Source: Rhizobium oryzihabitans (GTDB lineage Bacteria; Pseudomonadota; Alphaproteobacteria; Rhizobiales; Rhizobiaceae). From it: a DNA stretch of 64,000 bases. Location: NCBI RefSeq assembly GCF_010669145.1, contig NZ_CP048632.1:806001-870000 (forward strand). The letters run 5' to 3'. Numbering within the stretch: position 1 is the first letter of the stretch; each line of letters starts with the position of its first letter. This document shows positions 1,894 through 9,274 of this stretch, piece by piece. The notes beneath the pieces are model-generated. The model was not told the DNA's origin. It was given only the letters and a program-made list of their open reading frames with translations, and did no database searches. The position numbers and the translations under genes are program-made.

Positions 1894-3177
1894 ATGCCCA
1901 CGTCGCACCACTATGATCCCGGTTTTTGCCGTGACTGTCTGGCGGGCCAGCCAGCGGGCCTGAGGCGTTGCCGCGCCTGCGGCAGCCCGCGTCTCGTCTA
2001 CCATGACGAACTCTATGATCTCAGCATCGCCCATATCGATTGCGACGCCTTTTACGCCTCCGTCGAAAAACGGGACAATCCCGAACTTGCCGACAAGCCG
2101 GTCATCGTTGGCGGTGGCAAGCGCGGTGTGGTTTCCACCGCCTGCTACATTGCCCGCATTCAGGGCGTGCGTTCCGCCATGCCGATGTTCAAGGCGCTGG
2201 AAGCCTGCCCGGATGCGGTGGTCATCAAGCCGGACATGGAAAAATACAGCCGAGTCGGGCGCGAAATCAGGTCCATGATGCAGGAGTTGACGCCGCTCGT
2301 GCAGCCGATTTCCATAGATGAGGCATTTCTTGACCTTTCCGGAACCGAAAGGCTGCACCATGATCCGCCGGCGCGCGTGCTGGCGAAATTTGCCAAGCGG
2401 GTGGAAAAAGAAGTCGGCGTGACGGTCTCGGCCGGCCTGTCCTATTGCAAGTTTCTGGCCAAGGTCGCGTCTGACCTCAAAAAGCCGCGTGGCTTTTCGG
2501 TAATCGGCGAAGCCGAGGCGCTTTCCTTTCTGGCGACGCGGCCCGTCACCACCATCTGGGGCGTGGGAAAGGCATTTGCGGCAACGCTGGAGGCGGACGG
2601 CATCCGCATGGTGGGCCAGCTGCAGGAGATGGAGGAAGGCGATCTGATGCGCCGCTACGGGGTGATGGGGCAGCGGCTCTTCCGGCTCTCACGCGGCATA
2701 GACGAGCGTCATGTCCACAACAATGACCCGGCCAAAAGCGTGTCTTCCGAGACCACTTTCTTCAACGATATTTCCCGGCACGATGACCTCGTCCCGATCC
2801 TGCGCTCGCTGTCCGAAAAAGTCGCCTGGCGGCTGAAGAAGAGCGGCATTTCAGGCCAGACGGTGGTGTTGAAAATGAAGACGGCCGACTTCAAGAGCCG
2901 CACCCGTAACCGCAGGCTTGATGACCCTACCCAGCTTGCCGACCGGATATTCCGCACCGGTCTTTCGCTGCTGGAAAAAGAAACCGACGGCACCAAGTTC
3001 CGGCTGATCGGTATCGGCGTCAGCGATCTGCGCGATGGAGGGCTTGCCGATCCTCCCGATCTCGTCGACAGACAGGCTGAACGCCGGGCAGCGGCGGAAG
3101 CGGCCATGGACAAGCTGCGCGACAAGTTCGGCAAGGGCAGCGTCGAGACCGGCTACACTTTCGGCACACGCAAGTGA
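1894..3177 (+). CDS. dinB: DNA polymerase IV (Y family) with N-terminal zinc-ribbon-like segment
   Basis: Error-prone translesion polymerase of 427 residues. The Y-family core begins near residue 44 with [14 protein letters not shown] (metal Asp) and contains SIDEAFLDL (catalytic Asp-Glu), the helix-hairpin-helix region [12 protein letters not shown], and a little-finger domain near residues 280-390. The first ~30 residues hold Cys12, Cys15, Cys26 and Cys29 as two CxxC pairs, which look like a small zinc ribbon and are absent from E. coli DinB. As I recall, rhizobial homologues share this head. The C-terminal beta-clamp-binding peptide is not obvious. A degenerate SOS box lies just upstream. 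Confidence 0.93.
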
Positions 3178-4604: not shown

Positions 4605-7600
4605 TCACACCAGCTCGACATCAACAATGCCGGGAGCGGAGCGAAGTGCTGCGGCGATTTCCGGCGAAATGCGGTATTTCTCCGTCAGTTCCACCTCGAT
4701 CTCGCGACTGCCTTCATCCTTGATGACGATAAAATAGACCGATCCGTCACCCTTCGTGTTGAGGTGCCTGGCGACGGTTTTCAGCGGGCCGGAATCGCGC
4801 ACGTAAACGCGCAGAGCCTTCTGCATCTGCACGGATTTCTCCTCCAGCGATTGCGCCGTCTGGATGCGAAGACCGATGCCTTCCGGTCGCTCTTCGGCCT
4901 GAACGGTGATGACCAGCGATTTGCCCACTTCTAGCAGATCACGGAACTGGCCGAGCCCTTCGGAAAACAGCACAGCCTCATATTGGCCGGAGGCATCCGA
5001 GAAGGTGACGATTCCCATCTTGTTGCCGGTGCGGGTCTTGCGCTCCTGCTTGCCCGTGACCGTGCCGGCCAGACGCCCGGCGGTTGCGCCCTGCTTCACC
5101 GCCGCTGAAAAATCGGCGAAATTCTGTACCCGCAATTTCTCCAGGACCGGCCGATAGGTATCGAGCGGATGGGCGGTGAGGTAAAAGCCGAGTACCTGAT
5201 ATTCGCGCAGCAGCTTTTCCGAAGCGAGCCAGGGCTGGAAGGCGGGCAGCACGAGCTTTTCCGGACCGCTTGCGCCGCCTGAGCCGAACATGTCCGACTG
5301 GCCGGTGACACGGCTTTCCTGCGCGCGCTGCGAATAACCGATGATACGGTCCAGACCGCCGATCATCTCGGCACGGTCGCGACCGAAACAATCGAAACCG
5401 CCGGCATTGATGAGGCTTTCCAACACACGCCGATTGATCTGCTTCGGATCGATCCGCAGGCAGAAATCCTCAAGGCTCGTAAACGGCTTGTCGCCGCGAA
5501 CAGTGACGATGTGCTCCACCGCCCCCTCGCCCACGCCCTTGATGGCGGCCAGCGAATAATAGATGCGGTTTTCGCCCGTCTCGAACTGGCGGAAGGAGGT
5601 CTGCACGGAAGGTGCGACGATCTCGATGCCGAGGCGGCCGGCATCCTGCCGGAAATCGTTGAGCTTATCCGTATTCGCCATATCAAGCGTCATGGAGGCC
5701 GCAAGGAACTCCACCGGATAATGCGCCTTCATATAGGCGGTCTGATAGGAAACGATGGCGTAGGCGGCGGCGTGGCTCTTGTTGAAGCCGTAATTGGCGA
5801 ATTTCGCCAGAAGGTCGAAGATGGTGTCGGCCTGCGGCTTCGATACGCCGTTCTTGATGGCGCCATCAACGAAACGTTCGCGCTGCTTGTCCATCTCCTC
5901 CTTGATCTTTTTGCCCATGGCGCGGCGCAGAAGATCGGCCTCGCCGAGTGAGTAACCGGAGAGAACCTGGGCGATCTGCATCACCTGTTCCTGATAGACG
6001 ATAACGCCCTGGGTTTCCTTCAAGAGATGGTCGATGGTCGGATGGATGGATTCCAGCTCCTCCTCGCCATGCTTGCGGGCATTATAGACCGGGATATTCT
6101 CCATCGGTCCCGGACGATAGAGAGCCACCAGCGCGATGATATCCTCGATGCAGTCCGGGCGCATGCCGATCAGCGCCTTGCGCATGCCGGCACTTTCCAC
6201 CTGGAACACGCCGATGGTCTCGCCACGCGACAGCATCTCGTAGGTTTTGGCGTCATCGAGCGGAATTGCGGCAAGATCGACCTTGATGCCACGCTTGGCA
6301 ACGAAATCGACGGCCACCTTCAGCACCGTCAGCGTCTTCAGGCCGAGAAAGTCGAATTTGACGAGGCCGGCGCTTTCCACCCATTTCATGTTGAATTGCG
6401 TGACCGGCATGTCGGAGCGCGGATCGCGATACATCGGCACCAGCTTCGACAGCGGCCGGTCTCCGATGACGATACCGGCGGCATGGGTGGATGCGTGCCG
6501 GTAAAGCCCTTCGATCTTCTGGGCGATATCAAGCAGACGGGCGACGACCGGTTCCTTGTCCGCTTCTTCCTGCAGACGCGGTTCTTCCTCGATGGCTTTC
6601 GACAAGGGTGTCGGATTGGCCGGGTTGTTGGGCACGAGCTTACAGATCTTGTCCACCTGCCCATAGGGCATTTCCAGCACGCGGCCAACGTCGCGCAAAG
6701 CCGCACGCGCCTGCAGCGAACCGAAGGTGATGATCTGCGCCACCTGCTCGCGGCCATATTTGCGCTGCACGTAACGGATCACCTCTTCGCGGCGATCCTG
6801 GCAGAAGTCGATATCGAAGTCGGGCATCGATACGCGTTCGGGATTGAGGAAGCGTTCGAACAGCAGCGAGAAGCGCAGGGGATCGACGTCAGTGATGGTG
6901 AGTGCATAGGCAACGAGCGAGCCGGCACCCGAACCGCGGCCGGGACCGACCGGAATATCCTGCTGCTTGGCCCATTTGATGAAGTCGGCAACGATGAGGA
7001 AGTAACCGGGGAATTTCATGCGCGAGATGACGCCGAGCTCGAAATCCAGTCTCTCGCGATAATCATGCTCCGTATAGCCGGGCGACATGCCGAGCGCGGC
7101 GAGCCGCTGATCCAGCCCCTCGACAGCCTGTCGACGAAGCTCCTCGGTTTCGGCGTGTTCCGCAGCCTCCGGATCGTCGCTGGCGCCGGTGAAACGCGGC
7201 AGGATCGGCCCGCGTTTTTTCAGCACGTAGGAGCAGCGGAGCGCAATCTCGATGGTGTTTTCCAGCGCCTCGGGAATGTCGGCAAACAGCGCCGTCATTT
7301 CCTCGCGGCTTTTCAGATAATGGTCGGGGGTCAGGCGAAACCGGCTGTCATCGGAAACGATGGCGTTATGCGCCACCGCCATCAACGCATCATGCGCCTC
7401 GTAATCGGCCTTTGAAGGAAAGAACGCCTCATTGGTGGCGACAAGCGGAATATCGTGTTCATAGGCAAGCCCGATCATACGCCGCTCATGGGCGCGGTCA
7501 TAACCGGACTGGCGCTGCAATTCGATGTAAAGCCTGTCACCGAAGAGCGACTTCAGCGTTATCAGACGTTCTTTTGCCTGGGATGCATGCCCTTCCTTCA

Positions 7601-8104
7601 GGGCCATATCAACAGGACCACCCGAGGCGCCCGTCAGCACGATCAAACCGGCATTGGAGGCTTCCTCCAGCCACGCGCGGGTAATATGCACGGACTGGCC
7701 TCCGCTTTCACCCTCCAGATAGGCACGGCTGATCAGATCCACCAGCCGCTCGTAACCTTCAGCATCGGCCGCCAGAAGCACGATGGCGGGAAGTTTTGCG
7801 AGGTGGCTGTTATGGTTGCGGCGATCATCCGCCGCATCCTGCATGTCGATCGATACCTGGCAGCCGATGATCGGCTGCAGACCCTCATCGCGCGCCTTTT
7901 CGGAAAATTCCAGCGCAACGAAAAGATTGTTGGTGTCGGTGATGGCAATGGCCGGCTGGCCGTCAGCAACGGCCTTGGACATGATTTTCTTGAGGGGTAG
8001 CGCCCCTCAAGCAGGGAGTAAGCGGAATGGACCCGCAGATGGACGAAACCCGGCGTCTTCAGCGTTCCGTCAGAGTTTTCTCCACGCACAACCGTATCGC
8101 CCAT
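4605..8104 (-). CDS. dnaE: DNA polymerase III alpha subunit, frameshifted near the 5' end as sequenced
   Basis: Replicative polymerase catalytic subunit. The N-terminus starts at ATG 8104 (MGDTVVRGENSDG) and reads into the PHP-domain start FVHLRVHSAYSLLEG. The frame then changes near 8003-8006 and continues as KKIMSKAVADGQPAIAITDTNNLF to the stop at 4605. One extra C in the plus-strand CCCC run at 8003-8006 would restore EGALPLKKIM. Downstream are GPGRGSGAGSLVAYAL, the catalytic MPDFDIDF (near 6804-6826), helix-hairpin-helix and OB-fold regions and a C-terminal tail, giving about 1,165 residues. Full-length DnaE1 is essential, so sequence error is likelier than inactivation; the long downstream frame shows no other defect. 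Confidence 0.93.
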
Positions 8105-8209
8105 AACATCGTCCTGTCATTCTGAATCGAGGGGGCGATTTTCCGATTTCCGGCGCTCAAAGTCCACAGCCTTGCGGCCTCTATACAGGCTTCTGCGCCG
8201 GTGCGTCCT

Positions 8210-8296
8210 TCACAGGGCAGTGAGGATCACCGAAAAGCTGGCAACAAAGACAGCGATGGAAGCGAAAGCGGCAACGTCACGGATGAAATCAGTCAT
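8210..8296 (-). CDS. 28-residue membrane micro-protein under LexA control (SidA-like candidate)
   Basis: An ATG at 8296 follows a strong ribosome-binding site (AAGGAGAG, 5-6 bases away) and opens a frame of 28 codons ending in TGA at 8210. The peptide begins with a short charged head (MTDFIRD) and then has about 20 uninterrupted non-polar or small residues (AAFASIAVFVASFSVILTAL), so it should be a single inner-membrane helix. Five LexA half-sites lie immediately upstream. Caulobacter SidA, an SOS-induced 29-residue membrane division inhibitor, has the same size, topology and regulation. Homology to SidA is not shown; such short sequences cannot prove it. It ends 105 bases before dnaE on the same strand. 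Confidence 0.75.
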   Translation of the reverse strand: MTDFIRDVAAFASIAVFVASFSVILTAL

Positions 8297-8317
8297 TGGT
8301 CTCTCCTTACTCGTTAT

Positions 8318-8343
8318 GTTCCAACTTTGTTCTCATTTCGTTC
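8318..8343 (-). promoter_or_regulatory. LexA operator 1: three GTTC half-sites, two overlapping SOS boxes
   Basis: Plus strand reads GTTC (8318-8321), 7 bases, GTTC (8329-8332), 7 bases, GTTC (8340-8343). Each neighbouring pair is a perfect alphaproteobacterial SOS box GTTC-N7-GTTC. The site covers the expected -10 region of the micro-gene promoter. Confidence 0.85.
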
Positions 8344-8352
8344 CATTGTCAA
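8324..8352 (-). promoter_or_regulatory. Putative promoter of the SOS micro-gene
   Basis: On the minus strand a perfect TTGACA lies at 8347-8352. With 17 bases spacing the -10 would be CAAAGT (8324-8329), a weak match. The -35 sits between the two LexA operators and the -10 lies inside operator 1, so LexA should block polymerase. Confidence 0.55.
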
Positions 8353-8356
8353 CAGG

Positions 8357-8371
8357 GTTCTGCTGAGGTTC
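8357..8371 (-). promoter_or_regulatory. LexA operator 2
   Basis: GTTC (8357-8360), 7 bases, GTTC (8368-8371): a second perfect SOS box, 13 bases beyond operator 1 and upstream of the TTGACA element. Confidence 0.8.
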
Positions 8372-8439
8372 CTCTTGCTAACGCGAGAGAATCGGCCGCG
8401 GTTCCGTTGGCGTTGTCGGCAAGTCCCTGACTCCAAAGC

Positions 8440-8473
8440 AAAAAAACCCGGAGGCAAAAAACACCTCCGGGTT
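8440..8473 (-). terminator. Rho-independent terminator of the lolCD genes
   Basis: A perfect 10-bp stem (8445-8454 with 8464-8473, arms AACCCGGAGG/CCTCCGGGTT) and 9-base loop, followed on the minus strand by a run of T. It lies about 120 bases after the lolD stop. Confidence 0.85.
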
Positions 8474-8590
8474 CGGAAAAATTCAGTTGTGGAAGAGCGA
8501 GCGACAGTCTGGCCGACGCAGGGTGAAGAGACTCACCGGTTCGGTACGGATCGCACCGGGTGTCGCAATGATCGCCCTATGCAGTGACGA

Positions 8591-9274
8591 TCAGAAATCG
8601 ACGATCTTCCCTTCGGCGAGCGTCACGCGACGATCCATGCGGTTGGCGAGATCGTGATTATGGGTGGCGATCAGTGCCGCAAGACCGGACTGGCGCACCA
8701 GCGCTTCCAGCGCATCGAACACATAATGCGCGGTCTCGGGGTCGAGGTTGCCGGTCGGCTCGTCGGCAAGCAGCAGGAGCGGCGCATTGGCGACTGCGCG
8801 CGCAATGGCCACACGCTGTTGTTCACCGCCTGAAAGTTCCGCCGGGCGATGTTCGCCGCGATGACCGACGCGCATATAGTCGAGCAGCGCGCTGGCGCGC
8901 TTGCGAGCCTCGGCCTGCGTCAAACCGGCGATGAGCTGCGGCATCATCACATTCTCCACCGCTGAAAATTCCGGTAGCAGGTGATGGAACTGGTAGACGA
9001 AGCCGATATCGCTGCGACGGATCGCCGTGCGGGTTTCATCCGGCAGGCCGTTGCAGGGCGCGCCATTGATGAAGACCTCACCTGCGTCGGGATGTTCGAG
9101 AAGCCCCGCCAGATGCAGCAGCGTGGATTTGCCGGTTCCCGAGGGGGCGACAAGTGCCACCATCTCGCCGCTCTTCAGTTCAAAATCGGCCTTGCGCAGA
9201 ATGGAAAGCGACGTCTCGCCCTGACCATAAGTCCTCTCGACGCCGGTAAGCCGCAGCACTGTTTTTTTTGCCAT
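8591..9274 (-). CDS. lolD: Lipoprotein-releasing ABC transporter, ATP-binding subunit LolD
   Basis: Powers release of outer-membrane lipoproteins from the inner membrane. 227 residues with Walker A (APSGTGKST, residues 43-51), Q-loop ([11 protein letters not shown]), ABC signature (LSGGEQQ, from residue 147) and Walker B ([13 protein letters not shown]), then a conserved His in [10 protein letters not shown]. The [17 protein letters not shown] segment is typical of LolD/MacB-type ATPases. It follows lolC by 15 bases and ends upstream of a clear terminator. Confidence 0.95.

Follow-up and report, generated by a model that had tools for sequence, protein, structure and literature searches.

The small gene that directly precedes dnaE in the window, that is, the 64,000-nucleotide stretch of Rhizobium oryzihabitans DNA analyzed here, is best read as a homolog of Caulobacter sidA located in the same dnaE slot, and for this 28-codon gene we predict repression by LexA, induction upon DNA damage, and a block of cell division, likely exerted beside FtsW. 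To this reading we assign a probability of roughly 0.8.

Small gene and its genomic context

The features of the locus are summarized in Table 1. The genes were found in the order proS, lolC, lolD, small gene, and dnaE on one common strand (the proS and lol names were read from translations). A terminator scan of the locus detected no terminator-like site between the 28-codon frame and dnaE, and SOS-driven transcription running from the small gene into dnaE is thus possible. The initial annotation had described a 28-codon frame with a strong ribosome-binding site; both were present, and the GGAG of the latter was retained in 33/33 genus genomes.

Table 1. Positions, within the window, of the small gene, its control elements, and its neighbors
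Feature	Positions	Strand	Remarks
Putative SidA-homolog frame	8210–8296 (stop codon included)	minus	28 codons; ATG start; encodes MTDFIRDVAAFASIAVFVASFSVILTAL
Ribosome-binding site AAGGAGAGA	8300–8308	minus	GGAG at 8306–8303, six bases 5' of the ATG
LexA-type box GTTC-N7-GTTC, AT-rich	8318–8332		Best conserved in the genus (32/33 perfect)
Overlapping LexA-type box GTTC-N7-GTTC	8329–8343		Perfect in 24/33 genus genomes
TTGACA, likely -35 element	8347–8352	minus	Box 8329–8343 lies in the spacer behind it
Third GTTC-N7-GTTC match	8357–8371		Perfect in 6/33 genus genomes; not conserved
Terminator-like hairpin	8444–8474	minus	13 pairs; precedes the promoter and closes the lolD unit
lolD-like ABC transporter gene	8591–9274	minus	Upstream neighbor of the slot; name read from translation
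dnaE	4605–8104	minus	Next gene downstream, ~105 bases from the 28-codon frame

The dnaE reading frame in the window is broken near 7983–8010, which leaves a first part at 7733–8104 and a remainder at 4605–7982. It is uninterrupted in a relative of the same family (L309), and given so essential a gene, the interruption is likely an assembly error. Approximately 5 kb off, a dinB-like (DNA polymerase IV) frame, named from its translation, was observed on the plus strand at 1894–3177.

The peptide is predicted to form a single membrane helix, as had been proposed in the initial annotation: its mean Kyte-Doolittle hydropathy over residues 8–28 was 2.36 (1.88 for SidA), and a segment of 19 residues reaching 1.6 or more was present in 102 of 112 family frames. 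When all 117 family sequences were taken together, conservation was periodic at 105 degrees (P 0.0013), which is consistent with one binding face; with the 28-mers alone, aligned from Met, a conserved helix face was not significant (P 0.24).

Conservation of the frame as a protein

The 28-codon frame was found in all 37 genomes of the genus, including that of the window, at E≤1e-8. The same search of 24 other-family genomes returned only four weak matches (E 0.5–1), three of which (G041, G049, and G051) proved to adjoin dnaE. Across 35 loci of the genus, the DNA occurred in 29 distinct versions and the protein in 10; variable columns were distributed over codon positions 1, 2, and 3 as 10/1/24 (hypergeometric P=6e-9), and pN/pS was 0.133. 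The small frame evolves as a protein, and it is the protein that is conserved. A check proposed along with the initial annotation, namely whether relatives conserve the frame itself or the LexA boxes alone, was therefore answered in favor of the frame by its presence in 37/37 genus genomes and its pN/pS. A chance reading frame was ruled out by these two observations together with the codon-position bias.

A family profile search covered 394 genomes and gave a match in 278 at E≤1, a permissive threshold at which some matches arise by chance. Forty family loci with strong or middling scores were then fetched by choice, mostly one per genus, and three (L115, L116, and L126) were left out as spurious, having neither dnaE nor lolD context. 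In the 37 verified loci that remained, the frame had 28 codons in 36 and 27 codons in one, dnaE lay downstream in 36, and a lolD match lay upstream in 31; the locus L124 kept proS-lolC-lolD and the small frame, with dnaE absent. The 28-codon frame is a conserved gene, and the family to which it belongs is not confined to agrobacteria but extends through the order and into some lineages of the class. In a reduced 1.5-Mb genome of the family (L320), no small-gene relative was recognized before dnaE, and this one such genome suggests that the small gene was lost with genome reduction.

Occupant of the same slot in Caulobacter

Caulobacter genomes were reached by using part of an S-layer protein as bait, and dnaE was then located in four genomes. 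In each of these four named genomes, the frame directly before dnaE was 29 codons long. The four 29-mers were identical or one to two residues apart, had a GAAC-N7-GAAC box upstream, and scored 73.4–74 bits against NF033228, "cell division inhibitor SidA" (cut-off 35), by which SidA itself was shown to occupy that slot. SidA has been described as a 29-residue, SOS-induced inner membrane peptide that binds FtsW (PMC4211646); the genes concerned are CCNA_02004 for sidA (PMC10769358) and CC1926 for dnaE (PMC1839093).

Homology tests against SidA

When the 28-mer of the window was searched against NCBIfam, NF033228 included, and Pfam, no match was obtained even at E≤10. NF033228 exceeded its cut-off (35 bits) in none of 289 class genomes, the genome of the window itself being without a match, and in 1 of 14 control genomes; within the alignment A3, it matched one of the 38 members (E=0.038). 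We accordingly regard the window gene as a SidA homolog that falls outside the NF033228 equivalog model.

Profiles built without Caulobacter sequences approached SidA in steps. The profile from A3 only scored the Caulobacter 29-mers at 11.3–14.6 bits, all of which were exceeded by the best of 2000 shuffles (15.1 bits), and 3 of the 2000 shuffles reached the score of the weakest 29-mer. With members from the order added, SidA scored 16.7–20.2 bits, compared with 16.4 for the highest of 2000 shuffles. When the profile was widened to other members of the class, and the nearest sampled SidA relative (L285) was omitted along with Caulobacter, SidA rose to 22.0–24.1 bits, the best shuffle for this profile being 15.4 bits. 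Two bridging class genomes (L398 and L402) carried 29- and 31-codon frames before dnaE, which scored 20.5 and 23.5 bits against the SidA model, under its cut-off.

In hhalign, SidA and the rhizobial alignments were aligned without gaps from Met1 to residue 20, with Prob values of 77.5 and 68.5 and E-values of 1.9e-5 and 4.6e-5, each for a single comparison. The hhalign score was reached by 0/200 shuffles of all columns and by 3/200 shuffles of the helix columns only, indicating that much of the alignment signal comes from the head. Beyond the core R-[DE]..A..S.A.F[VI], identity was low. Searching whole Caulobacter genomes with the A3 HMM gave matches at E≤10 from which sidA was absent, a result that illustrates the weakness of sequence alone.

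The case for homology, suggestive by sequence alone, is strong once the common slot, length, and regulation are taken together. Since both genes occupy the same slot before dnaE and profiles built without SidA reach SidA, descent best accounts for the resemblance, and the window gene is likely an ortholog of SidA. Homology, position upstream of dnaE, a LexA-type box, and a predicted single-helix form of about 29 residues were all found for it. The initial annotation had proposed an agrobacterial functional equivalent of SidA from resemblance alone; that proposal is supported and can be raised to a likely ortholog, but its restriction to agrobacteria has to be abandoned in view of the wider spread of the family.

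LexA boxes and promoter

GTTC half-sites start at 8318, 8329, 8340, 8357, and 8368, with spacings of 11, 11, 17, and 11 bases, and GTTC-N7-GTTC is the LexA consensus of Caulobacter (PMC12700426). Box, TTGAC, and GGAG counts for the genus were made on 33 distinct genomes of the 37, with L061 and L062 omitted as second loci. The single genome in which box 8318–8332 was imperfect had one mismatch, and the nine in which box 8329–8343 was imperfect were likewise one mismatch off; the latter box stands at -47 from the ATG, the position commonest for the box in other genera. The three perfect boxes that the initial annotation had placed around TTGACA were all present in the window, but only two of them belong to the conserved arrangement; the third is probably outside the regulatory system. 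TTGAC was present in 33/33 genus genomes, and TTGAC or TTGAA in 55/65 wider loci. A consensus sigma-70 scan at the locus gave no promoter match, so that TTGACA is the sole basis of the promoter assignment.

A perfect GAAC-N7-GAAC was located within 200 bases upstream of the frame in 55 of the 65 loci (37 from the family and 28 from the order search, L093 and L130 being one place and both counted), mostly at -47 or -48. The LexA box had played no part in the searches that yielded these loci. In the genome of the window, GTTC-N7-GTTC occurred 206 times versus 98 for a reversed-word control, and its AT-rich form GTTCNNNNWWTGTTC occurred 20 times versus once for the reversed word, box 8318–8332 being among the 20. 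Ten frames beside AT-rich sites were scanned: they included UvrA (partial), a UvrD/PcrA-like helicase (partial), a DNA-repair radical-SAM protein, another radical-SAM protein, two ImuA-like proteins (below the model cut-off), and the YifB ATPase, and the remaining three had no family match. Given these GTTC-N7-GTTC boxes, LexA repression of the 28-codon gene is predicted.

Three ImuA-like frames were seen in the same genome, on contigs C2, C4, and C6 (L416, L418, and L421), all three of them preceded by an AT-rich LexA box; the C2 and C6 frames seem to begin identically. The same three contigs also carry dnaE-type polymerase matches besides dnaE, the C2 copy consisting of two overlapping pieces.

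Distribution across the order and class

A survey was made of 183 dnaE loci taken regardless of small frames, of which the order search supplied 89 and the class search plus Caulobacter 94. They were a portion of the loci listed by these searches: about 30 loci per search were joined by 60 per list taken by rank, which favored nearer relatives. Small frames within 450 bases upstream of dnaE were scored with the profile, which was then iterated. The first pass gave 58 matches (controls: 0 opposite-strand, 1 shuffled), and the Caulobacter frames passed this round at 9.3–12.6 bits against a threshold of 8 with a profile then still devoid of Caulobacter sequences. Finally, relatives were recognized before dnaE in 55/89 order loci, a count left unadjusted for at least one doubtful row (L382, with neither box nor core motif), and in 20/94 loci of the class set; the controls gave 0/409 opposite-strand and 0/2700 shuffled frames. 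For the class outside the order, the figure was 13/87, where 87 is the number left from the 94 once the genome of the window, two genomes of the order, and the four purposely selected Caulobacter genomes are removed.

A perfect box was present within 450 bases of dnaE in 53/89 order loci and 25/94 loci of the class set, the reversed word in 3 and 3. Frame and box went together: both, box only, frame only, and neither were counted at 49/4/6/30 order loci (Fisher P 1.3e-13), and at 13/5/0/69 class loci outside the order and without Caulobacter (Fisher P 8e-12). A recognizable homolog was not found at 34/89 order and 74/87 class dnaE loci, for which loss, relocation, or divergence are possible explanations. 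A class-wide HMM search without synteny gave 59/387 matches at E≤0.3, mostly chance, among which L162 (order) and L163 and L183 (outside the order) proved to precede dnaE.

In one family of the class (f60; L189–L192), the frames in the same lolCD-dnaE slot were longer, about 44–48 codons, because of additional N-terminal residues in front of a WF[QK]DIAAL core, and GAAC half-sites were present. The additional residues may represent either an added domain or a different start codon.

Proposed function and alternative interpretations

By analogy with SidA, DNA damage would activate RecA, whereupon LexA cleavage would release the promoter. The peptide would then insert into the inner membrane, its single helix would contact the septal-wall synthase FtsW (and FtsN), and septal synthesis would be stalled until LexA recovers. 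That the rhizobial peptide is induced by damage, binds FtsW, and arrests division is thus extrapolated from the Caulobacter case, in which cells lacking lexA filament because of sidA (PMC12700426), SidA suppressors map to ftsW and ftsI (PMC4211646), and SidA has been placed on TM7 of FtsW by published models to which their own authors do not ascribe high confidence (PMC13396833).

The gene might instead descend from sidA and have another membrane partner in this lineage, without binding FtsW. The low identity beyond the core motif and the absence of the Trp19 of SidA would fit such a change of partner, which we nevertheless hold to be unlikely in view of the gapless register with SidA over residues 1–20, the same regulation, and the same locus. 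The common locus with SidA, along with the homology, also argues against an SOS-induced membrane toxin that depolarizes or slows the cell rather than inhibiting the divisome. TisB and DinQ are small single-hydrophobic-helix peptides under SOS-type control, and the present peptide has its small size, its one hydrophobic helix, and its type of control in common with them; its helix, however, is uncharged, and a toxin of this kind appears highly improbable here. A type I toxin like TisB or DinQ would be expected to have an antisense RNA antitoxin in cis. Rfam gave no match over the gathering score in 7900–8700, by which a described structured RNA at the locus was rejected; an undescribed antisense RNA would escape such a search.

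The distance of about 105 bases to dnaE, free of terminator-like sites, would equally suit an upstream leader frame whose translation tunes dnaE while the peptide itself matters little, and uORF roles have been suggested for frames such as the translated sORF25 in the dnaE1 5'-UTR of Sinorhizobium meliloti (PMC10117765). This interpretation is very unlikely, however, given that different genera retain both the length and the amino-acid sequence of the peptide and that all seven genomes examined of genus g97 have kept the frame with a perfect box although their 3-kb loci contain no dnaE; of the three g97 genomes in which dnaE was looked up, it lies about 711 kb away in one (G274) and on another contig in two (G132 and G213). 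A leader peptide of dnaE should always be joined to dnaE, and in L124 and the seven g97 genomes no dnaE adjoins the frame. At five of the seven g97 loci (L131, L132, L136–L138, L140, and L141), a lolC or lolD match still adjoins the gene.

Returning to the preferred reading of a SidA homolog, we consider it somewhat probable that SidA is the ancestral SOS division brake of Alphaproteobacteria, already seated between lolCD and dnaE when the lineages of rhizobia and Caulobacter split, and overlooked as too short and fast-drifting for annotation. It would then be the missing SOS checkpoint of rhizobia and agrobacteria, with one LexA promoter driving both division arrest and transcription of the replicative polymerase.

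Comparison with known systems

In the literature found, an alphaproteobacterial SOS division inhibitor is known only from Caulobacter; our search, which did not cover the 2011 SidA and 2004 LexA-regulon papers, returned no report of SidA homologs beyond that genus. The present family offers many lineages a candidate inhibitor of about 28 codons at a predictable address, missed by the curated SidA model of NCBI. It would also make available a minimal single-helix inhibitor of the FtsW type in dozens of naturally occurring forms, useful for finding the helix face that matters.

The window gene and sidA are alike in their slot directly before dnaE, their GTTC-N7-GTTC control, their length (28 versus 29 codons), and their R-D/E head followed by one hydrophobic helix, with gapless homology at the profile level. 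They differ in that only 7 of 28 residues are identical (shuffle P 0.04), in that Trp19 of Caulobacter SidA is missing from the window peptide, and in that some relatives are longer, at 30–48 codons. A further likeness is found in sORF25 of S. meliloti, a small frame in the dnaE1 5'-UTR whose translation was detected by Ribo-seq; judged by its place it is probably the same gene, and the words "SOS" and "LexA" are absent from the main text of the report (PMC10117765). By their descriptions, YneA of Bacillus, SosA of Staphylococcus, ChiZ of Mycobacterium, and DidA of Caulobacter are likewise small, damage-induced membrane inhibitors acting late in division, and YneA binds TM7 of FtsW; YneA and ChiZ differ from the present peptide in carrying a LysM domain, and DidA in being SOS-independent (PMC13396833, PMC4211646).
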